Shown: piece after piece, positions 5,484 to 63,999 of the stretch
Numbering within the stretch: the stretch's first letter is position 1
Layout of the letters: every line of letters begins with the position of its first letter
Source: Streptomyces coryli
GTDB taxonomy: Bacteria; Actinomycetota; Actinomycetes; Streptomycetales; Streptomycetaceae
DNA: 64,000 bases
Reading direction: 5' to 3'
NCBI RefSeq assembly: GCF_011044975.1
Contig: NZ_JAAKZV010000007.1
Location: 1 to 64,000 of the forward strand
Translations under genes and position numbers: made by a program
Notes under the pieces: model-generated
The model's database searches: none
What the model was told of the DNA's origin: nothing
What the model saw: the letters and a program-made list of their open reading frames with translations, nothing else

Positions 5484-5951
5484 TCACACCGCGCCGGGCG
5501 CGTCGGCCAGCGGGATGACCCGGGCGGTCGCCGTCGCGGTGGCGATGAGGACCCCGTCGGGGCGGGTCAGTTCGGCCGACAGGCGTGCCAGGTCGCCGTC
5601 CCGGTGCAGTACGCGGCCGGTGGCGAGCAGGCGTCCGGGGCGGGCCGGGCGGAGGAAGTCGGTCTTCATCTCCAGGGTGGACTGGAATTCGTCCGGTTCC
5701 AGGGTGGCGAGCAGCGCCGGTCCGAGGGTGTCGTACAGCATCGCGGCGACGAAGGCGCCGAGGATGTTCCCGGCCGGATTGGTGAACTCCTCGGTCGCCG
5801 TAAAGGCCAGCTCGATGGTGCCGGCCTCGGGGTCGGCGGCCACGAACTCTAAGCCCAGCGTGCGGGCCGCGGGCGGCATCGGCAGCCGCCCGTGCACCCC
5901 GTCCCAGAAAGGGCCGGTGCGGTCGGCGCCGGTTTTGCGGATGTCGCGCAC
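5484..5951 (-). CDS. PaaI-like hotdog thioesterase
   Basis: About 155 residues. The block PAGNILGAFVAAMLYDTLGPA (about residues 59-79) matches the PaaI/YbgC-type hotdog fold, where the Gly and Asp residues hold the acyl-CoA. It probably hydrolyses an acyl-CoA. The GTG at 5951 is the most upstream sensible start, without a strong ribosome site; an internal ATG at about residue 25 is too late to keep the first strand. It lies tail to tail with the acyl-CoA dehydrogenase operon, which fits a role in the same acyl metabolism. Confidence 0.75.
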   Translation of the reverse strand: MRDIRKTGADRTGPFWDGVHGRLPMPPAARTLGLEFVAADPEAGTIELAFTATEEFTNPAGNILGAFVAAMLYDTLGPALLATLEPDEFQSTLEMKTDFLRPARPGRLLATGRVLHRDGDLARLSAELTRPDGVLIATATATARVIPLADAPGAV

Positions 5952-19933: not shown

Positions 19934-20872
19934 TCACCGCGGCGCCAGCACCACCCACACCGGACCGGGCGCGAACCGCAGCCGGCCGCCGTCCTTCGCC
20001 GTGTACGTCGTCCCGCCCCCGGCCGACGGCCGCGACCAGCGCGCGTCGTACGCCCGCCCGTCGCGCAGCACCACGGCGGAGCCGGATCCGGTGGTCTCGG
20101 TGTACGGCGTGACGTTGCCGCCGCGGTCGCTGAAGCGGGACGGGCGCACCTTCACCTTCTGGATCACGACGGTCGCCGCGGAGACCCGGCCGCCGTCGGT
20201 GGTACGGGCCGGGGCGCCGTCCATCGCGACCAGCCAGCGGCGGTCGTCGGCGGACCAGGAGAACTGATAGGCCGCCGCCGGGAAGCGGACCCGCTCCTCG
20301 GTCACGGCCCGCCCGCCCTTCGGCGTCGGGCCGAAGCGGAAGCCGATGTCCTGCGCGCGGCTCGCCCCGTCGGCGGCGTCGAGGGCGCGCTCGGGGCGGA
20401 CGAAGAGATTGTGCGGTGCCGGGCGGTCCTTGCCGCGGTAGTACGCCTTCGAGGAGGCCGTCACCTCTTGCAGCGGCGCCGAGTGGATCAGCGGCAGCAG
20501 CTTGCCCTGCGCGCCGGAGTAGGCCAGCGCCGGGCGGTCGAACTGCCGCAGCAGCTCCAGGTCCGACTCGCGGGCGCTGCGCACCGGGCCGACCACGTCG
20601 GGTATCCGGGACGCGTACACGGCGAGCAGCCGGGTCAGCCCCGCCTCGACCTGCTCGACGTAGACGATGTCGGCCGAGCCGAGGCCGGTGTGCGGGCGGG
20701 CGGCCCGTACGTTGTCCACCTTCACGGCCAGCACCGGGCCGTTGCCGTTGGGTTTGCCGGTGAGCCAGGACTTCCCGGACGACTTCTCGTCGTCCAGTGG
20801 CTTGCAGCCGATCAGGACGGCGAGCAGCACTCCGGCCACGGCGAGCGCGTGTAAGCGACGTATCCCCGACAT
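19934..20872 (-). CDS. DUF3048 (YerB-like) lipoprotein
   Basis: A 312-residue exported protein with lipobox VLIGC (mature Cys at about residue 23). DUF3048 blocks: VLAVKVDNVRAARPHTGLG, ADIVYVEQVEAGLTRLLAVY, GPVRSARESDLELL and RPAPHNLFV. The family is common in Gram-positives and probably acts at the cell wall, but its role is unknown. Leu7, at the beginning of the signal peptide, is encoded by TTA (20852-20854), the rare codon read by the bldA tRNA in Streptomyces. Confidence 0.88.
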   Translation of the reverse strand: MSGIRRLHALAVAGVLLAVLIGCKPLDDEKSSGKSWLTGKPNGNGPVLAVKVDNVRAARPHTGLGSADIVYVEQVEAGLTRLLAVYASRIPDVVGPVRSARESDLELLRQFDRPALAYSGAQGKLLPLIHSAPLQEVTASSKAYYRGKDRPAPHNLFVRPERALDAADGASRAQDIGFRFGPTPKGGRAVTEERVRFPAAAYQFSWSADDRRWLVAMDGAPARTTDGGRVSAATVVIQKVKVRPSRFSDRGGNVTPYTETTGSGSAVVLRDGRAYDARWSRPSAGGGTTYTAKDGGRLRFAPGPVWVVLAPR

Positions 20873-27665: not shown

Positions 27666-29678
27666 ATGGGACCTGAGCTGACGCGCCGCAGACTGCTGAT
27701 AGCCGCCGGCGCGGGGACGGCCGCGTTCGCCCTCGACGGGACGTTACGCACCGCTGCCGCCGCCGCGCCGACCGACACCGATCTGGTGGTGTACGGCGGC
27801 ACTTCCGCCGGCATCGCCGCCGCCGTGCAGGCGCGGCGGATGGGCGCCACGGTGGTGCTGCTGGAGCCCGGCCGGCACCTCGGCGGCCTGACCACCGGCG
27901 GCCTCGGCGCCACCGACACCGGGAACGGCGGGGCCATCGGCGGGATCGCCGGGGAGTTCTACCGCCGTATCCACGCCGCGTACAACGGCACCCCGGTCAC
28001 TCCGGACTCGCCCGCCCGCTACGTCTTCGAACCGCATGTCGCCGCCGCCGTCTTCGCCGAGCTGCTCGACGAGGCGGGGGTGCCGGTGGTGCGCGAGGCG
28101 CGGCTCGCCTCGGTGGAGAAGCGCGGGAACCGGCTGCTGCGGCTGATCACCGCGGGCGGGACCGCGTACCGCGGCCGGATGTTCATCGACGCCACCTACG
28201 AGGGCGACCTGATGGCGAAGGCCGGAGTGGCCTTCACGACGGGCCGCGAGGGCAACGCCAAGTACGACGAGACCCTCAACGGCGTCCAGCACCGCACCGG
28301 CCACCAGTTCGTCCACCGCGTGGACCCGTACGTGACCCCGGGCAGCCCGTCGAGCGGCCTGCTGCCGGGCGTATCAAGCGCCGCCCTCGCGCCCAACGGC
28401 ACCGCGGACGACAAGATCCAGGCCTACAACTACCGCATGTGCCTCACCAAGGCCGCCGACCGCATCCGCTTCCCGAAGCCGTCCGGCTACGAGCCGATGC
28501 GCTACGAGCTGCTGCTGCGCTATATCCAGGCGGGCTGGACCGGACCGTTCTTCACGACGACGCAGATGGGCGGCGGCAAGACCGACTCCAACAACAACGG
28601 CGCGTTCTCGACGGACCACATCGGCTTCAACTACGGCTATCCGCTGGGCTCGTACGCCCAGCGCGAGTCGATTGCCGTCGAGCACCGCACCTACCAGCAG
28701 GGCTTCATGTGGTTCCTCGCGAACGACCCGCGGGTGCCCGAGTCGATCCGCACATCGGTCGGCGCGTGGGGGCTGCCGGCGGATGAGTTCACCGGCTACG
28801 GCGGCTGGCCGCCGCAGCTGTACGTGCGCGAGGCGCGGCGGATGGTGTCGTCGTACGTGATGACCGAGCACGAGTGCCGCGGCCGGGTGAAGGTGCCGGA
28901 CCCGGTCGGGCTCGCTTCGTACACGATGGACTCGCACAACTGCCAGCGCCTGGTCGTCGACGGCGCGGCCCGCAACGAGGGCGACGTCCAGGTCGGCGTG
29001 CCCGCCCCGTACGGGATCAGCTACCGCTCGATCGTCCCCGTCGAGTCGCAGTGCGCGAACCTCCTCGTCCCGGTGGCGCTCGCGGCCTCGCACATCGCGT
29101 ACGGATCGATCCGCATGGAACCGGTCTTCATGATCCTCGCCCAGTCGGCGGCGACGGCGGCCCGCATGGCCATCGACACGAACGCGCCGGTCCAGCGCGT
29201 CCCGTACGCGAATCTCGGGACCCGCCTGCGCGCCGACGGCCAACTGCTGGACTGGCCGCCGACCGTGCCCGGCCAGGTCGTGGTCGACAACGCCTCACCG
29301 AGCGGCGTCACGACCGACGGCGTCTGGACGTCCAGCACCTCCATCCCCGGCTACTACGGCACCGACTACCTCCACGACGGCAACGGCAACAAGGGCATCA
29401 CCCGGCTCCGCTTCCGCCCTGACCTGCCGGATGCCGGCACGTGGACGGTGGCGCTGCGCTGGACCGCCGACCCGAACCGGGCTAGCAACGTGCCGGTGGA
29501 CGTGGAGACCAGTGCGGGCACCACCACCAAGACCGTGGACCAGCGCACCCAGGGCGGCCAGTGGGTGCTGCTGGGGAGCTGGGACTTCACCGCGGGCACC
29601 GGCGGCAGCGTGCTCATCCGCACGGACGGCACGGACGGTTATGTGGTCGCGGACGCCGTGCGGTTCACGCCGACGTGA
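27666..29678 (+). CDS. Tat-exported FAD oxidoreductase with golvesin-like C-terminus
   Basis: A 670-residue secreted flavoprotein. It has a twin-arginine signal (TRRRLLIAAGAGTAAFA), then an FAD_oxidored domain with the dinucleotide fold VVYGGTSAGIAAAVQARRMG (about residues 39-58) and LLEPGRHLGGLTTGG. The last ~135 residues (from VVDNASPSG) look like the golvesin C-terminal/xanthan-lyase-type beta-sandwich that binds carbohydrate (SIPGYYGTDYLHD, GTWTVALRW, YVVADAVRF). Proteins of this class occur in glycan-degradation loci. Leu27, within the signal peptide, is a TTA codon (27744-27746), a likely bldA-dependence mark. Enzymatic substrate unknown. Confidence 0.85.
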   Translation: MGPELTRRRLLIAAGAGTAAFALDGTLRTAAAAAPTDTDLVVYGGTSAGIAAAVQARRMGATVVLLEPGRHLGGLTTGGLGATDTGNGGAIGGIAGEFYRRIHAAYNGTPVTPDSPARYVFEPHVAAAVFAELLDEAGVPVVREARLASVEKRGNRLLRLITAGGTAYRGRMFIDATYEGDLMAKAGVAFTTGREGNAKYDETLNGVQHRTGHQFVHRVDPYVTPGSPSSGLLPGVSSAALAPNGTADDKIQAYNYRMCLTKAADRIRFPKPSGYEPMRYELLLRYIQAGWTGPFFTTTQMGGGKTDSNNNGAFSTDHIGFNYGYPLGSYAQRESIAVEHRTYQQGFMWFLANDPRVPESIRTSVGAWGLPADEFTGYGGWPPQLYVREARRMVSSYVMTEHECRGRVKVPDPVGLASYTMDSHNCQRLVVDGAARNEGDVQVGVPAPYGISYRSIVPVESQCANLLVPVALAASHIAYGSIRMEPVFMILAQSAATAARMAIDTNAPVQRVPYANLGTRLRADGQLLDWPPTVPGQVVVDNASPSGVTTDGVWTSSTSIPGYYGTDYLHDGNGNKGITRLRFRPDLPDAGTWTVALRWTADPNRASNVPVDVETSAGTTTKTVDQRTQGGQWVLLGSWDFTAGTGGSVLIRTDGTDGYVVADAVRFTPT

Positions 29679-32738: not shown

Positions 32739-33914
32739 ATGCCCAAGCAGGCATACGTGCGCACCAAGCCGCACCTCAACATCGGCACCATGGGCCACGT
32801 CGACCACGGCAAGACGACGCTCACCGCCGCGATCACCAAGGTGCTCAGCGAGCGCGCCGGCGGCTCCGGCTCCTTCGTCCCGTTCGACCGTATCGACCGG
32901 GCCCCGGAGGAGGCGGCGCGCGGCATCACGATCAACATCGCGCACGTCGAGTACGAGACCCAGACCCGGCACTACGCCCACGTCGACATGCCCGGGCACG
33001 CCGACTACGTCAAGAACATGGTCACCGGCGCCGCCCAGCTGGACGGCGCGATCCTGGTCGTCTCGGCGACCGACGGCGTCATGCCGCAAACCGCCGAGCA
33101 CGTCCTGCTCGCCCGCCAGGTCGGCGTCGAGCACGTCGTCGTCGCGCTGAACAAGGCCGACGCCGGCGACCCCGAGCTGACCGACCTGGTCGAGCTGGAG
33201 GTCCGCGAGCTGCTGGCGAAGCACGGCTTCGACGGCGACGGCGTCCCGGTCGTACGGGTCTCCGGGCTCAAGGCGCTCGAGGGCGACCCGCGATGGTCGG
33301 CGGCGATCGAGGCGCTGCTCGACGCGGTCGACGTGTACGTGCCCATGCCGGAGCGGTACACGGACGCGCCGTTCCTGCTGCCGGTGGAGAACGTGCTCAC
33401 CATCACCGGGCGCGGCACGGTCGTCACGGGCGCGGTCGAGCGCGGCACGGTGCGCGTCGGCGACAAGGTCGAGGTGCTGGGCGCGGAGATCGAGACGACG
33501 GTCACCGGCCTGGAGACCTTCGGCAAGCCGATGGAGTCCGCCGAGGCCGGCGACAACGTCGCGCTGCTGCTGCGCGGCGTCGCCCGGGACGCGGTGCGCC
33601 GCGGGCACATCGTCGCCGAGCCCGGCAGCGTGGCGCCGCGGCGGCGGTTCACCGCGCAGGTGTACCTGCTGCCCGCGGCGGAGGGCGGCCGGCACTCCGC
33701 GATCGTCACCGGCTACCGGCCGCAGTTCTACATCCGCACCGCGGACGTGGTCGGCGACATCGACCTCGGCGAGGCGGGCGTCGCCCGGCCCGGCGACACG
33801 GTCGAGCTGTCGGTCCAGCTCGGCCGCGAGGTGCCGCTCGAGCCGGGGCTGACCTTCGCCATCCGCGAGGGCGGCCGCACGGTGGGGGCGGGCACGGTCA
33901 CGGAGGTGCGGTAG
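32739..33914 (+). CDS. tuf3: Elongation factor Tu, third type (EF-Tu3)
   Basis: A 391-residue EF-Tu with intact G motifs: GHVDHGKT, the [12 protein letters not shown] switch and NKAD. It carries delivery of aminoacyl-tRNA to the ribosome. It differs from the main streptomycete EF-Tu in many conserved places (for example [21 protein letters not shown]) and resembles the divergent Tuf3 of S. coelicolor, reported to be poorly expressed and stringently induced. Only streptomycete-type genomes carry tuf3, which supports the taxonomic call. It stands alone, not next to rpsL/fusA. ATG 32739 has GAGGAAGAG upstream. Confidence 0.93.
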
Positions 33915-36926: not shown

Positions 36927-37922
36927 TCACTGCTCGAGCGGGCGCAGGCTCTTCATCATCTTCTCGATGGTGCTCTGCGGGACCTCGTCCTTCACCTTGA
37001 AGTCGGTGAGAAGGACAAAGGTCTTGAGCTCGCCTTCCTTGTCCTCGAAGCTGAAGGCGACTGCCTTGCCGTTCTGTCCGGTGCACTTATTGGTCTTCGT
37101 CGCTCCCGTGGTGGTCGCGATGACGTACTTCCCGGACGTGCCGTACGAGTTCGAGAAAGCCTTGGGCTTGGTGTATTCGAGCTTGCCGGCCTTGACTTCC
37201 TTCTTGGGGTCTTTGTAATACCCGTACGCGGCCCAGGCCATGGCCTCGTTAGTGGCCGCTTCGCCGGTGTTCTTCGCCCCCTGCGCGCCCTTGGTGCCGA
37301 CCGAGGCTCGCGTATAGGTGTCGTCTCCGGACTTGCACCACTTCTGCTTGAACACCGCCGGAGCCGAGAAGGATACGGCCGGCCCGGGGAAATCCGACTT
37401 GTCGTACGGGTCCTCAAGACCCCAACCGGTGTCGGCGCCCAGCACCTCCCAGCTCGGCGGGACGTCGAAGAGCGTGCCGTGCTTGGGGTTGGAAACCGGC
37501 TTCCAGCCCGGGACTACGGCCTTCAGGCCGCCGTTTGCGCCGTCGCTGCGTGGGTCGTCGGAGGTGCTCTGGCTGGGCTCGTCGGTCTTCTTTGTTGCCT
37601 TGGGTGACTTCGAGGTGCCCGCGACCGGGTCCTTGCCGCCGTCGTCGCGGTTCATCAGGACGACGCCGACCACCACCGCCGCGGCCAGGACCGCGACCGC
37701 TGTGACTATTGCCACTATGGAGGAGGTCTTCGGGCCCTGCTTCTGGGGCGGCTGCATGCCGCCGGGGGGTGTGGGGGGTGACCAGCCGGGGGCCGGCTGT
37801 TGGTACGGGTTCGGCTGCTGCCCGTACGGCTGTTGCTGGCCGTACTGCGGGGGCTGCTGGTACGGATTGGGTCCCTGTTGGTTCGGGTGCTGCTCGCCCC
37901 CGGGCTGCTGTCCTTGCCACAT
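36927..37922 (-). CDS. Membrane-anchored protein with Q/P-rich N-terminus
   Basis: About 331 residues: a cytoplasmic Gln/Pro/Tyr-rich tail (repeats of NPYQQP and YGQQ, about residues 10-45), one transmembrane segment (SSIVAIVTAVAVLAAAVVVGVVLMN) and an extracellular domain of unknown type that starts after a Ser/Thr/Asp-rich linker. The extracellular part has a pair of Cys (KWCKSG and NKCTGQ). Such proteins occur in many streptomycetes and are probably extracytoplasmic sensors or solute-handling proteins. The start (ATG 37922 or 37934) is uncertain; no clear ribosome site was seen. Confidence 0.75.
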   Translation of the reverse strand: MWQGQQPGGEQHPNQQGPNPYQQPPQYGQQQPYGQQPNPYQQPAPGWSPPTPPGGMQPPQKQGPKTSSIVAIVTAVAVLAAAVVVGVVLMNRDDGGKDPVAGTSKSPKATKKTDEPSQSTSDDPRSDGANGGLKAVVPGWKPVSNPKHGTLFDVPPSWEVLGADTGWGLEDPYDKSDFPGPAVSFSAPAVFKQKWCKSGDDTYTRASVGTKGAQGAKNTGEAATNEAMAWAAYGYYKDPKKEVKAGKLEYTKPKAFSNSYGTSGKYVIATTTGATKTNKCTGQNGKAVAFSFEDKEGELKTFVLLTDFKVKDEVPQSTIEKMMKSLRPLEQ

Positions 37923-37986
37923 GGGCAGCACCATATCCGGCGGCGCCGCCGGGCCGCGCTTGCTACTGGCTGGTAACGTGCGGCGC

Positions 37987-38451
37987 ATGCCCGAGACTCT
38001 GCCGGATATCGGCGAAATGATGGCGGCCACCGTGCCCATGGCCCGCACCCTCAATCTCGTCTTCGAGGAGACGGGCGCCGAGCGCGCGACCGTCCGCCTG
38101 CCCGACCAGCCCGCGTACCACAATCACGTCGGCGGGCCGCACGCCGGCGCGATGTTCACGCTCGCCGAGACGGCCAGCGGTGCCATCGTTCTCGCGGCGT
38201 TCGGCGACCAGTTGCAGCGGGCGGTGCCGCTCGCCGTGCGGGCCGAGATCGGCTACGCCAAGCTGGCCATGGGGGACGTCACCGCCACCGCGCGGCTCGG
38301 CCGTCCGGCCGCCGAGGTCGTCGCGGAGCTGGATGCGGGCAGTCGGCCGGAGTTCCCGGTCGAGGTGGACATCACGCGGGCGGACGGGGCCGTTACCGGG
38401 CAGATGCGGATCATCTGGACGTTGCGTCCTAATGACCCCAAGACCCCCTGA
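37987..38451 (+). CDS. DUF4442/hotdog-fold thioesterase-like protein
   Basis: A 154-residue hotdog-fold protein. HNHVGGPHAGAMFTLAETASG (about residues 45-65) is the substrate-binding helix of DUF4442/PaaI proteins. Probably hydrolyses a fatty acyl- or aryl-CoA. It is divergent from the Q/P-rich protein and convergent with the carbonic-anhydrase-like gene (11-base gap). Confidence 0.8.
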   Translation: MPETLPDIGEMMAATVPMARTLNLVFEETGAERATVRLPDQPAYHNHVGGPHAGAMFTLAETASGAIVLAAFGDQLQRAVPLAVRAEIGYAKLAMGDVTATARLGRPAAEVVAELDAGSRPEFPVEVDITRADGAVTGQMRIIWTLRPNDPKTP

Positions 38452-54478: not shown

Positions 54479-55337
54479 CGGGCCAGCCCGGGCCGACCGG
54501 CATGCGGTACGCCCGGCAGGCCGCGTTCGCGAAGATCTCGCTCCGGTCCTGCGGGGAGAGCCCCGCGCACAGCTGCTCGGTGACCTCGAGCACCCGGCCG
54601 TACGACGCCGTGAGCAGGCAGACGGGCCAGTCGGAGCCGAACAGCAAGCGCCGCGGGCCGAAGATCTCCAGGGCTGTGTCCGTGCAGGTCCTGACGTCAC
54701 GGCCGGGGGTGGTGAGCAGGCCGGACAGTTTGCAGAAGACCCGCGGCCCGGCGTCCGCCAGCTGCCGCAGTGACCGCGCCCAGGCGCGGTGCGCCTCCGC
54801 GTCGTCCGCCGGTGGCTGGCCCAGGTGGTTGAGGACGAAGGTGGTGCCGGGGCAGGCGCGCACGGCCGCGACCGCGGTGGGCAGTTGCCAGGGGCGGACG
54901 AGGAGGTCGAAGGCGAGGTTCGCGGTGCCGGTGGCGCGCAGGCCGCGCAGCACCGCTGGGCGGGTGAGCCAGTCCGGGTCCGGCTCGGCCTGGACGGGAT
55001 GACGGATGCCGACCAGGGCGGCGCCGCCGGGCAGTTCGCGCAGCGCGGTGAGGTGCTCGGTCACCGCCGGGGAGGCCAGGTCGGTCCACCCGACGACACC
55101 CGCGATGGGGCCGGGCGCGGCGGCGTGCGCGAGCAGTTCCGCGGTCTCCTCCGGCGCCGGCTGCGTCTGTACGAGGACGGTGCGGCCGACGCCCGTGGCC
55201 CGTAGCAGCGGTGCCAGGTCGTCCGGCCCGTAGCTGCGCCGGATCGGCGCGAGGGCGGGGGCGTCGAGCCAGGGCTGGTGCCGTATGGAGAGATCCCACA
55301 GATGGTGGTGCGCGTCGACGCGCCAGGCCTCGCTCAC
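54453..55337 (-). CDS. COG3618-type amidohydrolase (sugar lactonase-like)
   Basis: A 294-residue TIM-barrel amidohydrolase that begins VDAHHHLWD, the signature of the L-fuconolactonase/2-pyrone-dicarboxylate lactonase group. The C-terminal LLFGSDWPVCLL holds another metal-site Asp. GTG 55337 overlaps the stop of the upstream oxidoreductase-esterase fusion as GTGA. In the pectin locus it would open a lactone made by one of the Gfo/Idh dehydrogenases, for example from rhamnose or galactose oxidation (inferred). Confidence 0.85.
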   Translation of the reverse strand: MSEAWRVDAHHHLWDLSIRHQPWLDAPALAPIRRSYGPDDLAPLLRATGVGRTVLVQTQPAPEETAELLAHAAAPGPIAGVVGWTDLASPAVTEHLTALRELPGGAALVGIRHPVQAEPDPDWLTRPAVLRGLRATGTANLAFDLLVRPWQLPTAVAAVRACPGTTFVLNHLGQPPADDAEAHRAWARSLRQLADAGPRVFCKLSGLLTTPGRDVRTCTDTALEIFGPRRLLFGSDWPVCLLTASYGRVLEVTEQLCAGLSPQDRSEIFANAACRAYRMPVGPGWPVSRSGRRG

Positions 55338-57232
55338 CGTGGCGGCTCCTGCTCCCAGGTGAGCCCGGACTCGGGTATGTCCTCGTCCTCCAGCCGGCGT
55401 ACGTCCGCGGGGGCCAGGAGGCCCGCCGCCCGCAGGCCCCGCGCCACGAGGCGGGCGATCTCGATGGCGCCGCGCGACCGGACGTGGGTGTCGTCCTGGG
55501 CGCCGCGGGGGTGGTTGGGGTGGTCGCCGGGGCCGAGCCACAGGAAGGCGTCCTTGCTTGCCTCGGGGCCCAGTTGCTGCCAGAGCGCGTGGCTGGCGGC
55601 CTGTACGTCGATCAGCGCCACCTGCTCCTCGGCAGCTACGGAGCGCGCCGTCTCCGCGTAGGGGCCGTGCGTTTGCTGCGCGCTGCCGTCGGGGCCGAAG
55701 CTGCGGCGCTCGACCGGGGTGAGCAGCACCGGCACCGCGCGGGCGGCGCGTACGGCCGCGACTAGGCGCAGGAGGTGGTGGCGGTAGGTGGTGGCGGGGT
55801 CCGTGTAGCGGGTGGGGTCTTCCGCCTTCTGGTCGTTGTGCCCGAACTGGATCAGCACCAGGTCGCCCGGCCGCAGCGTGTCGACCAGCGCGTCGAGACG
55901 TCCCTCCGCCAGAAAGCTCAACGAACTGCGGCCATCGCGGGCGTGGTTGGCCACCGCGAGGTCGCGCCCGAGGAAGAGGGGGAGCGCCATGCCCCAGCCG
56001 GCCATCGGAGCGGCGGAGGCGGGTTTGGCGGCGGCGGTGGAGTCACCGGCGATGTGTACGGTGCGGGGTCTCCCGCGCGCCGCCCAGGGGGCGTCCAGCT
56101 CGGAGAACAGGGACAGCCGTGCCGCGCTCGCCTCGACCAGGGCGCTGATGCCCGGGATCACGCGGCGAGGAGCGGCCCCCGAGGTGTCGGTACGCCAGAA
56201 CTCCGGTGGCAGCGGCGTCGGTTCCGGCGCCGTGCGGATCTCCTCGACCACGCGCATGAAGCCCCCGCTGCGCTCCAGCGGGCTCAGCAGCGCGCTGCCG
56301 TGCCCGAGGTGGGCGACGAGATTCTCCAGCAGGTCGGTGCGCGGATGGACGCTCTCCTCCGGCGGGTGGCCGTCGCGCTCCAGCAGCACCTGGTCGTCGG
56401 TGTAGCGGAGCGTGATCCGGCCCCGGTCGCCGTGCACCACCACATACGGCGGCGAGTTGCGCTCGGCGCAGAGTGTGGCGGCGACGGTGACCGTCGTGCC
56501 GCGGGTGGTGCCGATCCGTACGCAGGCGGTGTCGTCCGCCTCGATGTCGTGGGCCCGGTAGAGCTCCGGTTCCACCGTGGCGACGTCCTCCTCGCGGTCG
56601 CTGCCGTCGAGCCGCAGCGCGGTGGCCACCGCGTGGGCGAGGGGGTTGGTGAGCACGCCGTCGACCACCTCCCCGGCCCCCAGCCGGCGCCGTCCGGCCC
56701 AGGGAGCGCGCGCGTAGTACCGGCCGTCGCGCACCCACGCCCCGGCCGCACCGATGCCGCGCACCCGCCCGATCGCGCCGTCGGCCACCAGCCGCCGGAC
56801 CGCCTCCAGGGCCGCGGAGCCGCACGACTGGAAGCCGACCTGGCAGACCCGGCCGTGCTCCTTGAACGCGGTGGTGAGCTGCCTGAAGCCGGCCAGCGAC
56901 GGCGCGGGCGGCTTCTCCAGCAGCACGTGCGACCCGGCCCGTACGGCGGTGAGGGCGAGGCCGACGTGGGTGTGGATGGGCGTGCTGACGATCGTGATCG
57001 TGGGGCGGGTCTGCTCCAGGAGCTTTGCCAGGTCGGGGGATTGGGGCGGTCCGCCGAGGGCCGCGAGCTCCTCGCCCGCGAGCGGCTTCGGGTCGCATAC
57101 GCCGACCACCCGGACCTGCCCGGCGGCCGTCAGCCGGGCCAGGTTGTCCCGGTGCAGGCGGCCGTAGCCATGGGCGCCCGCGAGGACGACCGGGAGCGGC
57201 TCATCCACCTGCGGACTCGCTGGCTGCGTCAT
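55334..57232 (-). CDS. Fusion: Gfo/Idh/MocA oxidoreductase + rhamnogalacturonan acetylesterase
   Basis: About 632 residues. Residues 1 to about 370 are an NAD(P)-binding Gfo/Idh/MocA oxidoreductase (VVLAGAHGYGRLHRDNLARL; VLLEKPPAPS). From about residue 385 an SGNH esterase of the rhamnogalacturonan acetylesterase type follows: block I IAGDSTAAA, block III FGHNDQK and block V DDTHVRSRGA with the catalytic Asp-His. RGAE removes acetyl groups from rhamnogalacturonan or its fragments. No signal peptide precedes it, so it acts on imported oligomers in the cytoplasm. ATG 57232 chosen over 57259. It shares a regulatory gap with the pectinesterase gene. Confidence 0.88.
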   Translation of the reverse strand: MTQPASPQVDEPLPVVLAGAHGYGRLHRDNLARLTAAGQVRVVGVCDPKPLAGEELAALGGPPQSPDLAKLLEQTRPTITIVSTPIHTHVGLALTAVRAGSHVLLEKPPAPSLAGFRQLTTAFKEHGRVCQVGFQSCGSAALEAVRRLVADGAIGRVRGIGAAGAWVRDGRYYARAPWAGRRRLGAGEVVDGVLTNPLAHAVATALRLDGSDREEDVATVEPELYRAHDIEADDTACVRIGTTRGTTVTVAATLCAERNSPPYVVVHGDRGRITLRYTDDQVLLERDGHPPEESVHPRTDLLENLVAHLGHGSALLSPLERSGGFMRVVEEIRTAPEPTPLPPEFWRTDTSGAAPRRVIPGISALVEASAARLSLFSELDAPWAARGRPRTVHIAGDSTAAAKPASAAPMAGWGMALPLFLGRDLAVANHARDGRSSLSFLAEGRLDALVDTLRPGDLVLIQFGHNDQKAEDPTRYTDPATTYRHHLLRLVAAVRAARAVPVLLTPVERRSFGPDGSAQQTHGPYAETARSVAAEEQVALIDVQAASHALWQQLGPEASKDAFLWLGPGDHPNHPRGAQDDTHVRSRGAIEIARLVARGLRAAGLLAPADVRRLEDEDIPESGLTWEQEPPR

Positions 57233-57283
57233 CGCGGACTCCCGCCGAAGGGTGGTCATGGACGCGTCACTGTGCTTCCATGC

Positions 57284-57295
57284 CTGGCATACCAG
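57284..57295. promoter_or_regulatory. CTGGCATACCAG palindrome (GntR/FCD operator candidate)
   Basis: CTGG and CCAG flank CATA in the short gap between the divergent fusion gene and the pectinesterase gene. TGGCATACCA differs by one base from the TGGTATACCA core of ExuR/UxuR-class (GntR/FCD) hexuronate operators. The nearby GntR/FCD regulator (62842-63999) is the obvious candidate protein. Confidence 0.7.
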
Positions 57296-57348
57296 AGGAA
57301 TGCCACCCGCATGCTAGCAGCGCGGCGCCCACGTAAGGAGCCCGTCCC

Positions 57349-58803
57349 ATGCGCCAGTTACGGTCACTGCCGGCCCTCGTCGCGGTTCTCTGCGCCCTCG
57401 CGGCGCTGCTCGTCGGCGCTCCTACTGCGCAGGCGCGGAGCGCGCCGGTGCTGCAGCCGCAGGGTCTCGACGAGGCGGTCTGCACCGACACCCCGCTGCG
57501 GATGACCTTCGACCGGAACGTACAGCTCGGCACCAGCGGCCAGTTGCAGGTGCATCACGCCGACGGCACCCTCGTGGACGTCGTGGATCTGGCCGACCCC
57601 GGCACGTATCAGAAGAGCATCGGCGGTGCGCTCACCGACTACGGCGAGGTGCACCGCTGGTTCTACGAGCCGGTGGTGCTCGACGGTCGCACCGCCTCCG
57701 TCCACCTCCACTACCCGCTGGACCCGCGGCAGGAGTACTACGTCACCGTCGACGAGGGCTTCTTCCGCGGCGAGCCGGCCATCGACGACCCGCAGACCTG
57801 GCGTTTCCGCACCAGGGACCACCCCGCGGCCGGCGCCTCCCGGCTGACCGTCGACCAGGGCGGCGGCGGGGACTTCTGCACCGTGCAGGGCGCCGTCGAC
57901 TTCGTGCCGCAGCACAACACCCAGGACGTCCGCATCGACGTCGGGCCCGGGACGTATCGCGAGATCGTCTACGTCCCGCAGACCAAGCCGCACCTGTCGG
58001 TCCGCGGCAGCGGCGCCGGCCGTACCGTCATCGGCTATCCCAACAACAGCGTGCTCAACGGCGACGCCGCCATGTCCGACGTACCGGCCCGGCAGAGCTA
58101 CTGCCCGCGCCGGGTGCTGCCGCAGCCCGATCGCTTCAATTGCTGGCGCGCGGCCTTCGGCGTCGACGCCGACGACTTCCGGCTGGCGGACGCCACCATT
58201 CACAACACGACGCCCAAGGGCGGCTCCCAGGCCGAGGCGTTCCGCGGCAACGGCGACCGGATCGTGCTGGAGCGGGTGCGGGTGCTCAGCTATCAGGACA
58301 GCCTGCGGCTGCAGGGGCGGGCGTTCGTCACCGACAGCTATGTCGAGGGCGACGTGGACTTCGTGTGGGGGACCGGCGGCGTCTTCGTCCAGGACTCCGA
58401 GCTGAAGTCGCTCGGCACCGGATACGTCAGCCAGATCCGTAATGCCGACGACGGGCCCGGCAACGTCTTCCTCCGGACGCGGCTGACCCGCGCCGCCGAC
58501 GTCCCCGACGGGAGCGTGCTGCTCGGCCGGATCGACAGCCGCTTCCCCGGCAGCCAGGTGGTGTTCCTGGACTCGCCGATGGACGCGCACATCGACGCCG
58601 TCGGGTGGGGGCTGACCGGCTTCGACTGCGCGGCGGGCGAGCGGCTGCGGTTCTGGGAGCACGGCAGCACCGATCTCGACGGCCACGCGCTCGACGTCTC
58701 CGGCCGGCTGCCCTGCTCCCGGCAGCTCGCCGCCGCGGAGGCGGCCAAATGGCGGGACCCCGGCACGCTGCTCGACGGCTGGGACCCGCGCACCTCCGAG
58801 TGA
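57349..58803 (+). CDS. Secreted pectinesterase, CE8
   Basis: A 484-residue exported enzyme: signal peptide (ALVAVLCALAALLVGAPTAQA), an Ig-like (SbsA/Big_5) domain to about residue 155, then the CE8 beta-helix. Catalytic motifs: GGSQAEAFR (oxyanion Gln), SYQDSLRLQG, GDVDFVWG (nucleophile Asp, usually GTVDFIFG) and LLGRIDS. It removes methyl esters from pectin, opening it to GH28 and lyases. Codon 4 is TTA (57358-57360), a likely bldA-dependent control. ATG 57349 has AAGGAG. Confidence 0.92.
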   Translation: MRQLRSLPALVAVLCALAALLVGAPTAQARSAPVLQPQGLDEAVCTDTPLRMTFDRNVQLGTSGQLQVHHADGTLVDVVDLADPGTYQKSIGGALTDYGEVHRWFYEPVVLDGRTASVHLHYPLDPRQEYYVTVDEGFFRGEPAIDDPQTWRFRTRDHPAAGASRLTVDQGGGGDFCTVQGAVDFVPQHNTQDVRIDVGPGTYREIVYVPQTKPHLSVRGSGAGRTVIGYPNNSVLNGDAAMSDVPARQSYCPRRVLPQPDRFNCWRAAFGVDADDFRLADATIHNTTPKGGSQAEAFRGNGDRIVLERVRVLSYQDSLRLQGRAFVTDSYVEGDVDFVWGTGGVFVQDSELKSLGTGYVSQIRNADDGPGNVFLRTRLTRAADVPDGSVLLGRIDSRFPGSQVVFLDSPMDAHIDAVGWGLTGFDCAAGERLRFWEHGSTDLDGHALDVSGRLPCSRQLAAAEAAKWRDPGTLLDGWDPRTSE

Positions 58804-58846
58804 CCTCAGCATCCCGACGACCTTCCCCGGCAGGTGAGTTACGCCC

Positions 58847-60046
58847 ATGTCCACGCTGTCCCGCAGAACCCTCCTGGGTGCCCTCGGCACCGCGACCGCC
58901 GTCGGCGCACTGCCCGCGGCGACCCACGCCGCCGCGGCCCCCGTCGGCAGCACGCCGGCCCGGGCCCGCCCGGTGGCCCCGGTCAACGCCGAGGTGGCCG
59001 CCGCGCACCCGCTCACGTACAAGACGCTGCCGCAGGAGGTGGTCGGCGTCGATGTCGAGGAGCTGATGAAGGTCCACACCGAGACCGACGCCGACGCGCT
59101 GCGTGCCGCGCTGGTACGGGAGGTGTGGAAGTCCGCGGACGGGCGGCTGCCCGGGGCGCTGCCGGATGTGGCCGAGGGCGTCGAGGCGCCCGAGCTGCCC
59201 GGCTTCACCGGGGTGCGGCGCATCGACCGGCTGACGGTGCGGATGCCGTACGGGCTGCGCTCGATCGTCTTCCTGCTGCTGCCGCACAGCAGCGACCACG
59301 GCCGGGTCGCGCTCTACCACAACGGCCATGGCGAGGAGCCGAGCACGATGCAGCGCACCGCCCAGGCGCTGCTGGACGCCGGGTACACCGTGCTGCTTTT
59401 CGCGATGCCGCTCTATCACTGGAATCCCAGGGAGCTGACCGATCCGGCGGACTCGTCCCGTACGGTCACGGTCGAGTCGCACAACGACCTCGGGCCGTGG
59501 GAGACCGCGGACTTCTCTACGCTGCGCTTCTTCCTGGAGCCGCCGGCCGTGGCTCTCAACCATGTCGTCGCGGCCCACCAGCCGCCGTCGGTGCAGATGA
59601 TCGGGCTGTCCGGCGGCGGCTGGGCGGCGACCGTCTATCCGGCGCTCGACACCCGGGTGACCCGGAGCTATCCGACGGCCGGGTCGCTGCCGTTCTTCCT
59701 GCGCCCGGCGCCGCCGAAGCCGAGCCCGACGACCGGCGACTGGGAGCAGCGCAAGGACCGGCATCCGGCGTTCTACGGGCTGACCGACTACCTCGATCTG
59801 TACGCGTTGGCGGCGACGGGGCGGCACCGGCGGCAGATGCAGATCCTCAACCGGTTCGACGACTGCTGTTTCAACGCCGTGGGCCACCGCGCCTATGAGG
59901 CGGTGGTGCGGCACCGTGTCCAGGTCATCGGGGACGGGCACTGGGAGCTGCTGGAGGACGCCACCCACGGCGACCACACCATCAGCCCGTATGCGCTGTC
60001 GGTCATTCTCTGGGACCTGGACACGGCCTGCGCCCACCAGCCGTAG
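58847..60046 (+). CDS. Secreted alpha/beta hydrolase
   Basis: A 399-residue exported protein with a Tat signal (SRRTLLGALGTATAVGALP). The nucleophile elbow GLSGGGWAA, a variant GxSxG, lies about residue 250, and LLEDATHGDHT near the end holds a His candidate. The expected acid may be in the DRHPAFYGLTDY area. Forty-three bases after the pectinesterase gene, so likely cotranscribed; it may be a sugar or phenolic esterase that finishes pectin or xylan side-group removal. Substrate not determined. Confidence 0.78.
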   Translation: MSTLSRRTLLGALGTATAVGALPAATHAAAAPVGSTPARARPVAPVNAEVAAAHPLTYKTLPQEVVGVDVEELMKVHTETDADALRAALVREVWKSADGRLPGALPDVAEGVEAPELPGFTGVRRIDRLTVRMPYGLRSIVFLLLPHSSDHGRVALYHNGHGEEPSTMQRTAQALLDAGYTVLLFAMPLYHWNPRELTDPADSSRTVTVESHNDLGPWETADFSTLRFFLEPPAVALNHVVAAHQPPSVQMIGLSGGGWAATVYPALDTRVTRSYPTAGSLPFFLRPAPPKPSPTTGDWEQRKDRHPAFYGLTDYLDLYALAATGRHRRQMQILNRFDDCCFNAVGHRAYEAVVRHRVQVIGDGHWELLEDATHGDHTISPYALSVILWDLDTACAHQP

Positions 60047-60053
60047 CGTCGCC

Positions 60054-60141
60054 GGTCAGCCGGTCAGCCGGTCAGCCGGTCAGCCGGTCAGCCGGTCAGC
60101 CGGTCAGCCGGTCAGCCGGTCAGCCGGTCAGCCGGTCAGCG
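60054..60141. repeat. Eleven-copy 8-bp tandem repeat (GGTCAGCC)
   Basis: Ten perfect units run from 60054 to 60133, followed by one with a final change (GGTCAGCG). The array lies at the convergent 3' ends of the alpha/beta hydrolase and oxidoreductase genes; the stop of the latter (TCA, 60128-60130) is inside it. With a unit not divisible by three and perfect repetition, the copy number is likely to vary between strains. Confidence 0.95.
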
Positions 60142-61471
60142 GCACGAGCGCGTCGGTCGCCACGGCGGTGCCCGTGGCGAACGACTCGTTCGCGGCCAGG
60201 CCGGTAACCAGGGCCAGGGCGCCGTCGAGGGCGGTGGCGGGCTTCCCGTCGCCGTCCTCGGTGCGCTGAGCGTCGGCGGCGGGGCCAAACAGCGCCGTCA
60301 GCATCCGCTCGTCGCCGCCGCCGTGACCGGCGTGGTCGTACTCCGGCAGCGGGACTTCCTCCGGCTCCTGCCACAGGCGGCGCAGCAGGATGCGTGGGCC
60401 GCCCGCGTTGGCCATGGCCTTGTCGCCGTGGATGGCGCCCTTGCCGGAGGAGGTGCGCAGCCGGGGCGGCTGCCAGCGGCTCTCCTCGACCTCAAGCTCG
60501 AGGCGGCCGCCGGTGCCGTTGAAGGCGACGCGGTAGCCCTCCCAGGGGGAGTAGGCGGTGAGGTGGTACGTCATGGAGGCCCCGGTGTCGTAGCGCACCA
60601 GCACCGACATGTCGTCCTCGATGGTGATGTCGTCGCCGAAGACATTGCGGTCGCGCAGGTAGCCGTCGTGCGGTTCGGCGTCGAGGTAGAGGGAGCGCAG
60701 GGCGGGGTTCTCGGCGAGCGGCAGCGCGAACGGGTCGCCGTCGGACTCGGGGGCGCCGTGGGCGCGTTCGTAGTCGCGGCGGTAGCCGCTGCGCTCGCCG
60801 GCGGCGCGGCCGTAGAACGCCAGCCGGCCGTGGCCGTAGACCTGCTGCGGGCGGGCGCCGAGCCACCAGTTGACGAGGTCGAAGTGGTGACTCGCCTTGT
60901 GCACCATCAGGCCGCCGCTCTTGTCCTTCTCGCGGTGCCAGCGGCGGAAGTAGTCGGCCCCGTGCCGGGTGTCGAGCAGCCACTCGAAGTGCACCGACAG
61001 GACGTCGCCGATGGCGCCGTCCGCGAGCAGCCGGTGGACCTCGGCGTGGACGGGGTTGTAGCGGTAGTTGAAGGCGACGGCGAGGTCGCCGCCGGTGTCG
61101 TCGACCGTCTGCAGGATGCGGCGGCAGCGGGGCGCGTCCGTCGTCATCGGCTTCTCCGTCACCACGCGGCAGCCGGCGCGCAGGGCGGGGACTATGTAGG
61201 CGTCGTGGAGCGAGTCCACGGTGGTGACCACCACTTCCCGGATGTCCTCGGTGCGCAGCCGCCGCTCGAAGTCGTCCGGGGTCCAGGCCGCCGCCTCCGG
61301 CTCGCCGGCCTCGGCCAGCAGCCGCTGGTGGTGGGCGATCCTGGCGGGGTTGGGGTCGCACAGCGCCGCCACCGTCAGGTGCGGGCGGCGGGCGAGTGCG
61401 GTGGTGAACATCTGGGCGCGTGAGCCGGTGCCCACCACGACGGCGCGGGCGGGTTCCGTGCTTGCTGCCAT
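60128..61471 (-). CDS. Gfo/Idh/MocA-family oxidoreductase
   Basis: A 447-residue NAD(P)-dependent dehydrogenase: Rossmann VVGTGSRAQMF (about residues 12-22), EKPMT and FNYRYNPVHAEVHRLL typical of the family, then the C-terminal domain with HKASHHFDLVNWWLG. The catalytic His/Lys pair is presumably K106 and the HH around 196. It probably oxidises or epimerises a pectin-derived sugar. The stop is in the 8-bp tandem repeat. Directly upstream of it on the strand is GH28, four bases apart. Confidence 0.9.
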   Translation of the reverse strand: MAASTEPARAVVVGTGSRAQMFTTALARRPHLTVAALCDPNPARIAHHQRLLAEAGEPEAAAWTPDDFERRLRTEDIREVVVTTVDSLHDAYIVPALRAGCRVVTEKPMTTDAPRCRRILQTVDDTGGDLAVAFNYRYNPVHAEVHRLLADGAIGDVLSVHFEWLLDTRHGADYFRRWHREKDKSGGLMVHKASHHFDLVNWWLGARPQQVYGHGRLAFYGRAAGERSGYRRDYERAHGAPESDGDPFALPLAENPALRSLYLDAEPHDGYLRDRNVFGDDITIEDDMSVLVRYDTGASMTYHLTAYSPWEGYRVAFNGTGGRLELEVEESRWQPPRLRTSSGKGAIHGDKAMANAGGPRILLRRLWQEPEEVPLPEYDHAGHGGGDERMLTALFGPAADAQRTEDGDGKPATALDGALALVTGLAANESFATGTAVATDALVPLTG

Positions 61472-61474
61472 GTT

Positions 61475-62845
61475 TCAGGCCTCCTGGGGTTTGCCGTTGA
61501 CGGTCACGTCGTGCAGCGATAGATCCGTTACGGATTCGAGGTGGATGTCCTGCGCGGCGGCGCCGAAGGCGAGTTCTGACAGCCGCACGTCGCGTACGGG
61601 CGCCTGCGGGCGGGCCCGGATGCGCACGGGGTACTCGCACGCTCCCGGAACCGACCAGCGCGCCGCCGACAGCCGGGAGACCTCGGCGAAGTGCTCGCCG
61701 CCGGTGCCGCCGGCGTACTGGAAGGTCACCTCGAAGGGGACGTAGGTCCAGCCCGGCGCGGTCACATCGGTGACCCGGATGTCGCGCACGTAACCGCCTC
61801 GGGTGGGCGTGGACTTGACGTTGAGGATCCAGCCTACGGACGCCTCGTCCAGCTCCGGATCAAGGGGTAGGTGCAGCCGCCTGGCCAGTACGTCCGATAC
61901 GCCGCCGCTCATCTCGCTGCCGATCGCCACGGCCGCGCCGCCGCTGAGGTAGACGCAGTCCTCGATCAGGATGTGCCGGGAGGGGACGCCGACCCGCCAT
62001 CCGTCCTGGTCGCGCCCGGACTTGATGGCGATGCAGTCGTCGTCGGTGGCGAAGGTGACGCGGCGGATGGCGACGTTCTCGCACGAGTCGGGGTTGCAGC
62101 CGTCGCTGTTCGGGCCGTGGCAGGCGATGGTGACGTCGCGGACGGTGATGTCCCGGCTGAGGACCGGGTGGATGTTCCAGAACGGGGAGTTGCGCAGGGT
62201 CACGCCCTCGATGAGGACGTTGCGGCAGGAGTGCGGCTGGATGAAGCTCGGGCGCAGGTAGTGGCCCGCGCCCAGGACCCGGTCGGCCACTGGGACGCCC
62301 TCGGCGCCCCAGCGCTGCAGCAGCTCCCAGTCGTCGCGCTCGTGCGGCATGCCGGGCTCCCAGCCGAACTGTCCGGAGCCCTTCCACGGCCACCAGTGCT
62401 GGTTGTCGCCCTGGGCGTCGAGCACGCCGCGGCCGGTGACGGCGATGTCGTGGGCCTCGTATGCGTAGATCAGCGGGGAGTAGTTGTGGACCTCGATGCC
62501 CTGCCAGCGGGTGCGTACGGACGGGAGATAGGCGGCCGGGTCGGTGCTGAACAGCACCGTGGCGCCCTCGGCTAGGTGCAGGTCCACGCCGCTGAGCAGG
62601 CGTATCGCGCCGGTGGCCCAGCGGCCGGCGGGGACCAGGACGCGGCCGCCGCCGGCGGCGTGGCAGGCCTCGATCGCGGCGCGGAAGGCGGCCGTGCAGT
62701 CGGTGCTGCCGTTGCCTGCGGCGCCATAGTCGGTGACCGGGAAGTGCGGTTCCGTGGCCGCCGCGGCCGTGGCACCGGCGAGCGGGACGGCAGCGGCCGC
62801 CAGGGCGCCGAGCCGTAACGCGGTCCTGCGCGTGGGTCTGCTCAT
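61475..62845 (-). CDS. Secreted GH28 family glycosidase
   Basis: A 456-residue exported beta-helix enzyme with a Tat-like signal (RRTALRLGALAAAAVPLAG). GH28 acids are conserved in NSDG (246-249, usually NTD) and ATDDDCIAIKSG (about 267-278). The GHG His, normally before IGSE, is Gly303, and the RIK motif reads NVK at 342-344. This loss points to a rhamnogalacturonan- or other non-polygalacturonan specificity. Codon 10 is TTA (62816-62818). The start ATG 62845 overlaps the regulator stop (ATGA). Confidence 0.88.
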   Translation of the reverse strand: MSRPTRRTALRLGALAAAAVPLAGATAAAATEPHFPVTDYGAAGNGSTDCTAAFRAAIEACHAAGGGRVLVPAGRWATGAIRLLSGVDLHLAEGATVLFSTDPAAYLPSVRTRWQGIEVHNYSPLIYAYEAHDIAVTGRGVLDAQGDNQHWWPWKGSGQFGWEPGMPHERDDWELLQRWGAEGVPVADRVLGAGHYLRPSFIQPHSCRNVLIEGVTLRNSPFWNIHPVLSRDITVRDVTIACHGPNSDGCNPDSCENVAIRRVTFATDDDCIAIKSGRDQDGWRVGVPSRHILIEDCVYLSGGAAVAIGSEMSGGVSDVLARRLHLPLDPELDEASVGWILNVKSTPTRGGYVRDIRVTDVTAPGWTYVPFEVTFQYAGGTGGEHFAEVSRLSAARWSVPGACEYPVRIRARPQAPVRDVRLSELAFGAAAQDIHLESVTDLSLHDVTVNGKPQEA

Positions 62846-63999
62846 GGAAGGTCTCCTCGCGGTCCGGGGGCGGGGTGCTCGCGGTGGTAGCGGGACGCCT
62901 CGCCGGCGGCGTGCGCGGCGAACATCGGCCCCGCGGTGTCGGGGTCGCCGTGCTCCAGGGCCGCCACCAGTTCCGCGTGGTACTCCGCCATGGCGCCCCA
63001 GTCGCCGACGTAGAGCGGATTGCCGACCACGTGCAGGCCCCACATGCTGGACTCGATCATCTGCCACAGCCGGGTCAGCGCGGAGTTGCCGGCGGCCTCG
63101 CACACATGCCGGTGGAAGGACATGTCGGCCTCCCGGAAGGCGCCGATGTCGCCGGTCTCCGCGCACCGCCGCAGCCGGTCCACGTCGTCGCCGAGCAGGC
63201 GCAGCTGCTCGGGGGTGAGCCGGCCGGTGGCCCGGCGGGCCGCGTACTCCTCGAACATCACCCGGATGTCGCGGACTTCCTGGGCCTGCCGCTCGGAGAC
63301 GTGCGCGACGTAGGTGCCCCGGTGCGGCTGGGAGCTCACCAGGCCCTCGTGCGCCAGCCGCTTGATCGCCTCGCGGGCCGGCGCCTGGCTGGTGCCGACG
63401 CGCTTGGCGACCTCGGCCTCGACGAGCCGCTGGCCCGGGGCGAGTTCGCCGCCGACGATCCAGCTGCGCAGCAGCCCGTAGACGTGGTCGGAGAGCAGCC
63501 GGCGGGGGACGTGATCGGAGCCCGGCATCTCGACGGCGGGGGCGGCCGGCGGGACCGCGGCGCGCGGCGGCGCGGGTGGCGGCGGCAGCCGGCGCTGCTG
63601 CTCCTGCCAGATGCGGGCGACGGTGGACTGGGACAGGCCCAGGGTGCGGGCCAGGGCGCGGGTGGACGGCACCGGGCCGCCGTCCCTGGCCTGCTCGACC
63701 AGCCGCGCGATCTGCTGCTCCGCGTCATGCCGGCTGCTGGTGCGCGGGCGGCCTGAGCGCGGCGCGTCGCCGAGGCCGGAGATGCCGTGACTCAGATAGC
63801 GCTCCCGCCACTTGGCGACGGTGGCCGGGCTGACCTGCAGCCGCTTGGCGACCTCGGCGTTCGCCAGGCCCTCGGCACAGGCGAGGATGATCCGGCTGCG
63901 CAGCCGGAGCGTCTCCGGCGGCCGGTCGGACCATTCGCGCAGCGCCGTCCGGTCCTCGTCGCTGAGCCGCGGGAACTGCCGCGTATCAGGCATGTCCAC
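62842..63999 (-). CDS. GntR/FCD regulator with N-terminal transposase-type HTH
   Basis: Up to 385 residues, starting near the window edge (GTG 63999 or ATG 63993). Residues ~20-80 resemble the N-terminal IS630/Tc1-type transposase HTH (RLRSRIILACAEGLANAEVA; VAKRLQVSPATVAKWRERYL; LGDAPRSGRPRTS). A second HTH-like stretch and a Pro-rich linker lead to a GntR winged helix (LSDHVYGLLRSWIVGGELAP; VGTSQAPAREAIKRLAHEG) and an FCD effector domain (VRDIRVMFEEYAARRA; FHRHVCEAAGNSALTRLW). FCD regulators bind sugar acids. Operon-leading gene of the GH28 block; it probably senses a pectin-derived acid and binds the CTGG-CATA-CCAG site. Confidence 0.9.
   Translation of the reverse strand: MDMPDTRQFPRLSDEDRTALREWSDRPPETLRLRSRIILACAEGLANAEVAKRLQVSPATVAKWRERYLSHGISGLGDAPRSGRPRTSSRHDAEQQIARLVEQARDGGPVPSTRALARTLGLSQSTVARIWQEQQRRLPPPPAPPRAAVPPAAPAVEMPGSDHVPRRLLSDHVYGLLRSWIVGGELAPGQRLVEAEVAKRVGTSQAPAREAIKRLAHEGLVSSQPHRGTYVAHVSERQAQEVRDIRVMFEEYAARRATGRLTPEQLRLLGDDVDRLRRCAETGDIGAFREADMSFHRHVCEAAGNSALTRLWQMIESSMWGLHVVGNPLYVGDWGAMAEYHAELVAALEHGDPDTAGPMFAAHAAGEASRYHREHPAPGPRGDLP

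Follow-up and report, generated by a model that had tools for sequence, protein, structure and literature searches.

The closest described systems are genes for cellulose degradation. In Streptomyces halstedii JM8, genes for an endoglucanase and a cellulose-binding protein are reportedly co-regulated by a TTA codon, as the title of a 1997 report by Garda has it. In Streptomyces scabies, scab51081 (GH5) and celS2 (LPMO), two secreted cellulose-degradation genes, have TTA at nucleotides 13 and 22 and CebR boxes at -54 and -177, and have been proposed as bldA targets (PMC5332605). A review gives TTA in celB for 6 of 13 and in celS2 for 7 of 14 Streptomyces species (PMC4255298 Table 2), in adpA for all streptomycetes analysed, and with a bias to gene starts in streptomycetes generally (PMC4255298). 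A survey of 213 species counted 51 to 505 TTA ORFs in each, found most TTA codons poorly conserved, and reported TTA ORFs as over-represented on the chromosome arms in 105 of the 213 (PMC10327506). Decoding of UUA by the bldA tRNA and the late accumulation of this tRNA are established (PMC4932002, PMC4255298), bldA is dispensable for the expression of some TTA genes (PMC5133688, PMC4932002), and effects on co-transcribed genes have been proposed for a bldA mutant (PMC2000904). Searches of the open literature yielded no printed TTA or bldA case for a pectinase, pectate lyase or polygalacturonase.

We describe here a streptomycete pectin locus in which two genes for secreted enzymes have a TTA codon in the leader. 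The locus is part of a 64-kb stretch of DNA, the whole of which was analysed and is referred to below as the window, and has the following features.

55334 to 57232, minus strand: fusion of a Gfo/Idh domain with a GDSL esterase domain (PF01408, PF13472), no TTA
57271 to 57281, plus strand: conserved block TGTGCTTCCAT, before the palindrome
57285 to 57294, no strand assigned: palindrome TGGCATACCA upstream of CE8, a probable operator for a regulator, recognised by conservation
57335 to 57340, plus strand: AAGGAG ribosome-binding site of CE8, identical and equally spaced in L001, L002 and L003
57349 to 58803, plus strand: CE8 pectinesterase gene, 484 aa, Sec-type leader by a crude leader rule
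57358 to 57360, plus strand: TTA, codon 4 of CE8, read in the sequence
58847 to 60046, plus strand: third secreted product, Tat-type leader MSTLSRRTLLGAL and GLSGGG motif (read by eye), no TTA
60128 to 61471, minus strand: Gfo/Idh/MocA oxidoreductase downstream of GH28 (PF01408, PF02894), no TTA
61475 to 62845, minus strand: GH28 pectinase gene, 456 aa, Tat-type leader
62816 to 62818, minus strand: TTA, codon 10 of GH28, read in the sequence
62842 to 63999, minus strand: regulator, a transposase-type helix-turn-helix joined to GntR-FCD, no TTA

The CE8 product matches PF01095 (E 1.1e-24, 87.2 bits against a Pfam cut-off of 27) and is predicted to have pectinesterase activity. GH28 matches PF00295 (E 1.6e-18, 67.4 bits against a Pfam cut-off of 22.9); the nearest NCBIfam model, that of the alpha-D-galacturonidase BT4155, scores 267.7 bits and is below its cut-off of 800. 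The third secreted product has neither a Pfam nor an NCBIfam match, and its orthologues adjoin CE8 in relatives. Its leader and that of the gene at 19934-20872 were missed by the crude leader rule and read by eye. The gene at 55334-57232 runs divergent from CE8. At the other end of the locus the regulator gene and the start of GH28 share an ATGA and the Gfo/Idh gene starts 3 bases after GH28, and from this overlap and short gap we infer that regulator, GH28 and Gfo/Idh gene likely form one operon. A perfect 8-bp tandem repeat of GCCGGTCA (11.2 copies, 60051-60140) sits between two convergent gene ends and extends into the Gfo/Idh gene at its 3' end.

The regulator has features of separate interest. 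Its helix-turn-helix part resembles the NCBIfam model transpos_IS630 (E 8e-22, 78 bits against a cut-off of 100), also matches Pfam HTH_29 and HTH_23, and is possibly a domesticated transposase domain. The joined helix-turn-helix and GntR-FCD form, 384-415 aa long, was present in all eight relatives scanned for it (L001, L002, L003, L005, L006, L153, L170 and L172). In MP131-18 it is the locus regulator (L001:14229-15428) that has a TTA, at codon 391 of 399, and both enzymes are free of it. A further peculiarity concerns the Actinoallomurus and Kribbella loci (L009-L018), where the open CE8 frame is longer at its upstream end by roughly 330 codons or more, and this extension holds a GDSL-like stretch, FYGDSIT, read by eye; CE8 may be fused to an esterase in these loci.

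Both TTA codons are in frame within the true coding sequence, in CE8 (ATG at 57349, then CGC, CAG and TTA) with a conserved start and ribosome-binding site, and in GH28 behind an ATG at 62845-62843 on the minus strand. Translation of CE8 from GTG 57448 would place the TTA outside the coding region; this start was picked by the first version of our home-made gene finder and has GGAG 7 bases before it. It would also strip CE8 of its leader, and the CE8 protein aligns with those of L001 and L002 from residue 1. Since AAGGAG lies at equal distance before an ATG in all three nearest relatives (L001-L003), ATG 57349 is well supported and we regard the GTG start as highly improbable. Codon 4 of CE8 is TTC in these three relatives. 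Codon 10 of GH28 encodes what we take to be the leucine of the twin-arginine motif TRRTAL, and its equivalent is CTG or CTC in all eight other orthologues compared codon by codon. The base following both TTA codons is C, a base that also comes after 19 of 27 background TTA codons and is therefore uninformative.

The original prediction had placed TTA at CE8 codon 4 and GH28 codon 10 and had found none in the other genes of the locus that it examined, and our analysis bears out both statements, the latter for all four genes (55334-57232, 58847-60046, 60128-61471 and 62842-63999). Its description of the pair as both secreted pectin enzymes is incomplete in that it left out the third secreted product, which has no TTA.

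How far the two codons are shared was examined in orthologues. A scan of genome contigs brought up 29 CE8 loci, led by that of Streptomyces sp. MP131-18 (79% identity), and the nearest orthologues point to Streptomyces as the source of the window. When 392 genomes of the genus were searched, 196 had any CE8-like match and 5 a close one, near full-length in 4 and partial in the fifth, and GH28 was matched in 17 at E 1e-60 and closely in 7, one of them truncated by a contig end. Further searches, with genomes partly shared between them, yielded 2 close CE8 matches in 296 relatives, 3 for GH28 in 394 genomes of the family, and 2 close matches for each gene in plasmid records. Of the other GH28 orthologues, 10 have a readable start and none of these has TTA, which leaves the copy in the window as the one case in 11. 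For CE8, TTA is found in 4 of 11 other orthologues, all from one clade, at codon 12 in or43 and NBC_00184 and at codon 5 in NBC_01669 and NBC_00841; the CE8 genes of MP131-18, SBT349, S. hoynatensis, Streptosporangium KLBMP 9127, S. longispororuber, NBC_01016 and G359 lack it. Two incomplete copies, CE8 of G219 (L034) and GH28 of G013 (L065/L176), fall outside these start counts, and their partial sequence contains no TTA. In neither GH28 nor CE8 do most orthologues share a TTA site, as they do in adpA.

Presence of TTA changes twice on a CE8 gene tree built with the first 60 codons left out. Within the TTA-containing clade the genes of or43 and NBC_01669 are 96.9% identical despite having TTA at different codons: codon 5 is TTC in G359, TTA in NBC_01669 and TCA in or43, and codon 12 is GTA in G359 and NBC_01669 and TTA in or43. 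Read by the shortest path, TTA would have been gained at codon 5 in the ancestor of the clade, then lost there and gained at codon 12 in or43/NBC_00184. The residue match between the leaders of the two CE8 clades is unsure, with MAFFT pairing codon 4 of the window gene with codon 12 of or43, and a reading by motif (FRPL with FRQL) pairing it with codon 5 of the other clade. TTA has arisen in CE8 in two separate lineages and always within the first 12 codons, which is a hint of selection. The locus itself is found about 0.39 Mb from a contig end in G001, 0.08-0.10 Mb from it in G359, and on linear plasmids of 267 kb and 1.51 Mb in Streptomyces NBC_00184 and NBC_00841 (L179, L180).

Whether two TTA genes in one locus are unusual depends on the rate against which they are set. 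Our background comprised 80 stretches of 20 kb (1.6 Mb) from the relatives G001 and G359, called with the home-made gene finder; it leans to the chromosome arms (40 of the 60 G001 stretches), and the homologous locus is part of it. TTA occurred in 19 of 809 called genes of G001 and 7 of 275 of G359, or 26 of 1084 altogether, with 9 of the 1084 having it in codons 2-15. Within the G001 sample the arms showed no enrichment in TTA genes over the centre (12/511 against 7/298). At this background rate at least two TTA genes among the six of the locus would have a probability of 0.008. The window is, though, itself rich in TTA genes relative to the background (P 0.009 for 5 or more): six of its 53 genes were called with TTA and five of these are credible, CE8, GH28 and the following three.

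5484 to 5951, minus strand: thioesterase-family gene, TTA at codon 34 (called with TTA in two of three gene-finder listings)
19934 to 20872, minus strand: DUF3048 protein with a lipoprotein-type leader read by eye, TTA at codon 7
27666 to 29678, plus strand: FAD oxidoreductase with a Tat leader and a golvesin domain, TTA at codon 27

The sixth, 36927-38039 with TTA at codon 22, was set aside as a gene without Pfam match that is probably a false upstream extension. The gene at 32739-33914 on the plus strand, going by the first part of its translation, is elongation-factor-Tu-like and may encode a second Tu.

With the window's own rate of 5 in 53, two TTA genes among six have a probability of 0.093 (0.131 with 6), and random placing of 5 in 53 puts two into some six-gene run in 91% of draws. 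Because the window is itself TTA-rich, the pair in the locus is not striking. Two of the three other credible TTA genes of the window also have their TTA in an export leader, so the pattern is not about pectin. The start rule of the finder was revised in knowledge of the CE8 case, and so the window TTA count may be slightly favoured; the revised rule was applied to window and background alike, and genes scoring under 25 were dropped. In relatives, an excess of TTA across the locus is not established (8/147 genes against 26/1084, P 0.054). This count leaves out the window, NBC_00184, NBC_00841 and Streptosporangium L004 (whose locus has one TTA gene, at codon 12), has the G001 and G359 loci on both of its sides, and takes in genes far from CE8 through L170, L171, L174 and L175.

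The position of the codons was considered in the same sample. Counted per leucine, TTA is 27 times as frequent in codons 2-15 (9 of 1276 leucines) as beyond codon 100 (8 of 30197), and other A/T-rich leucine codons are also raised at gene starts, TTG 2.6, CTT 3.0 and CTA 3.9 times. Against 3.4 start-region TTA codons expected from the rises of TTG and CTA, 9 were seen (P 0.009), a figure that start miscalls may inflate. An excess in leaders is not established: TTA lies in codons 2-15 of 3/114 leader genes and 6/970 others (Fisher P 0.059), with leaders called by a crude home-made rule.

Pectinases as a class give no lean towards selection for UUA, unlike the codon turnover in CE8, as judged from their best-scoring loci. 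Among up to 93 other Streptomyces pectinase genes from such loci, TTA was present in codons 2-15 of none, in codons 2-35 of one (L260, codon 18) and anywhere in two. These loci were the best-scoring matches, at most 30 from each search, with two partly overlapping GH28 lists. Genes were called at 25 of 25 loci for CE8 paralogues, 29 of 30 for PL1 and 21 of 30 for the GH28 family, and 18 of 23 GH28 paralogues were counted (four uncalled, one duplicate). A leader was recognised in 22/25 CE8 paralogues, 8/18 GH28 paralogues, 24/29 PL1 genes and 7/21 of the GH28 family; with so few leaders recognised some GH28 starts may be wrong, and the control is weaker for GH28.

A conserved feature of the locus lies upstream of CE8. 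A palindrome of the form TGGYATRCCA is found there in all 12 orthologues compared, and the block TGTGCTTCCAT before it is exact in 11 of the 12 upstream regions, that of L004 differing. The palindrome is the sole match in the window at up to one mismatch. A shuffled window gives 2.6 matches on average, so the match alone proves nothing and it is the conservation that carries weight. We infer that the palindrome is the site of the GntR-FCD regulator of the locus, and that transcription through this regulator and site would be the main, conserved layer of control. Since the palindrome is kept in 12 of 12, control independent of the GntR regulator, which the original prediction had put forward, is unlikely to be the main layer.

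On this footing the UUA codons would form a strain-level second layer, in GH28 without sign of long-term selection. One tRNA-Leu(UAA) was identified in the relative G001 among 11 long tRNA genes examined, of 56 tRNA matches, and the 64-kb window contains no tRNA gene. Both enzymes probably need the bldA tRNA for their translation. That tRNA, the one that reads UUA, is scarce in early growth, and we therefore think it likely that a UUA in the leader would stall translation of both enzymes until late growth. The stall in GH28 could also lower expression of the Gfo/Idh gene just downstream. Our preferred reading, to which we give a probability of about 0.7, is one of lineage-specific TTA gains that probably put both enzymes under bldA dependence atop conserved GntR-type transcriptional control.

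A stronger claim, made in the original prediction, is that a selected and coordinated bldA gate on pectin breakdown was set in both depolymerising enzymes. A leader TTA in both of these and in none of the four other locus genes speaks for such a gate, as does the appearance of TTA in two lineages of the CE8 family. It is difficult to reconcile with a GH28 TTA in 1 of 11 orthologues, the window's own, with a third secreted product that lacks TTA, with the absence of TTA from codons 2-15 of up to 93 other best-scoring Streptomyces pectinase genes, or with P 0.093 given the window's own TTA rate. The prediction had proposed comparing homologues for gain and loss; that comparison shows TTA coming and going in CE8 (4 of 11 others) and a single case in GH28 (0 of 10 others), and leader TTA codons also occur in unrelated genes of the window, all of which goes against a coordinated, pectin-specific gate. 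We judge it improbable. There is a small chance, which we hold as a tentative idea and rather doubt, that UUA is favoured within the first dozen codons of CE8 with its exact place drifting, so that a bldA gate is kept by turnover. Such a gate would be invisible to tests that want a conserved codon position, and surveys counting position-conserved TTA alone would underestimate selected bldA control.

At the other extreme, the codons could have no regulatory meaning, A/T-rich codon choice being relaxed at gene starts, TTA arising by drift and UUA being read well enough. The accompanying rises of TTG, CTT and CTA (2.6, 3.0 and 3.9 times) fit this explanation, and so does the placing of the GH28 TTA at a leucine for which the eight relatives compared use CTG or CTC. 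The rise of TTA itself is 27 times, with 9 seen against 3.4 expected (P 0.009, again subject to inflation by start miscalls), and established bldA biology predicts an effect of UUA. We consider drift without consequence unlikely, with an appreciable chance of being right. The orthologues show early TTA codons coming and going between close strains while the upstream palindrome stays. On the sequence evidence, both TTA codons are real; they are changes specific to a lineage, and the two genes that have them code for accessory secreted enzymes in the pectin locus of a streptomycete. The repeated gain of TTA within the first 12 codons of the CE8 family is a small lead worth keeping, for which the or43/NBC clade offers a natural pair for testing UUA turnover.

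Set beside the known systems, the locus extends the printed early-TTA examples among cellulose genes to pectin enzymes. It resembles scab51081 and celS2 of S. scabies, which are likewise genes of secreted polysaccharide-attacking enzymes with TTA in the first codons and a repressor box upstream; there the substrate is cellulose and the boxes are those of CebR, here it is pectin and the regulator is of the GntR-FCD type, and bldA control is a proposal in both. The data on celB and celS2 orthologues show TTA in some species, the same gain-and-loss pattern as in CE8, with the difference that it recurs there in more species, whereas the GH28 TTA is confined to one strain. Like each of the two enzyme genes, adpA has one UUA, and its translation is bldA-dependent; its TTA is conserved, and neither the CE8 nor the GH28 codon is. 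S. halstedii JM8 resembles the present case in having two clustered genes directed at a plant polymer, the substrate there being cellulose. Seen in this company, the pectin locus looks like a further example of a known, fast-changing Streptomyces habit and not a new control system.
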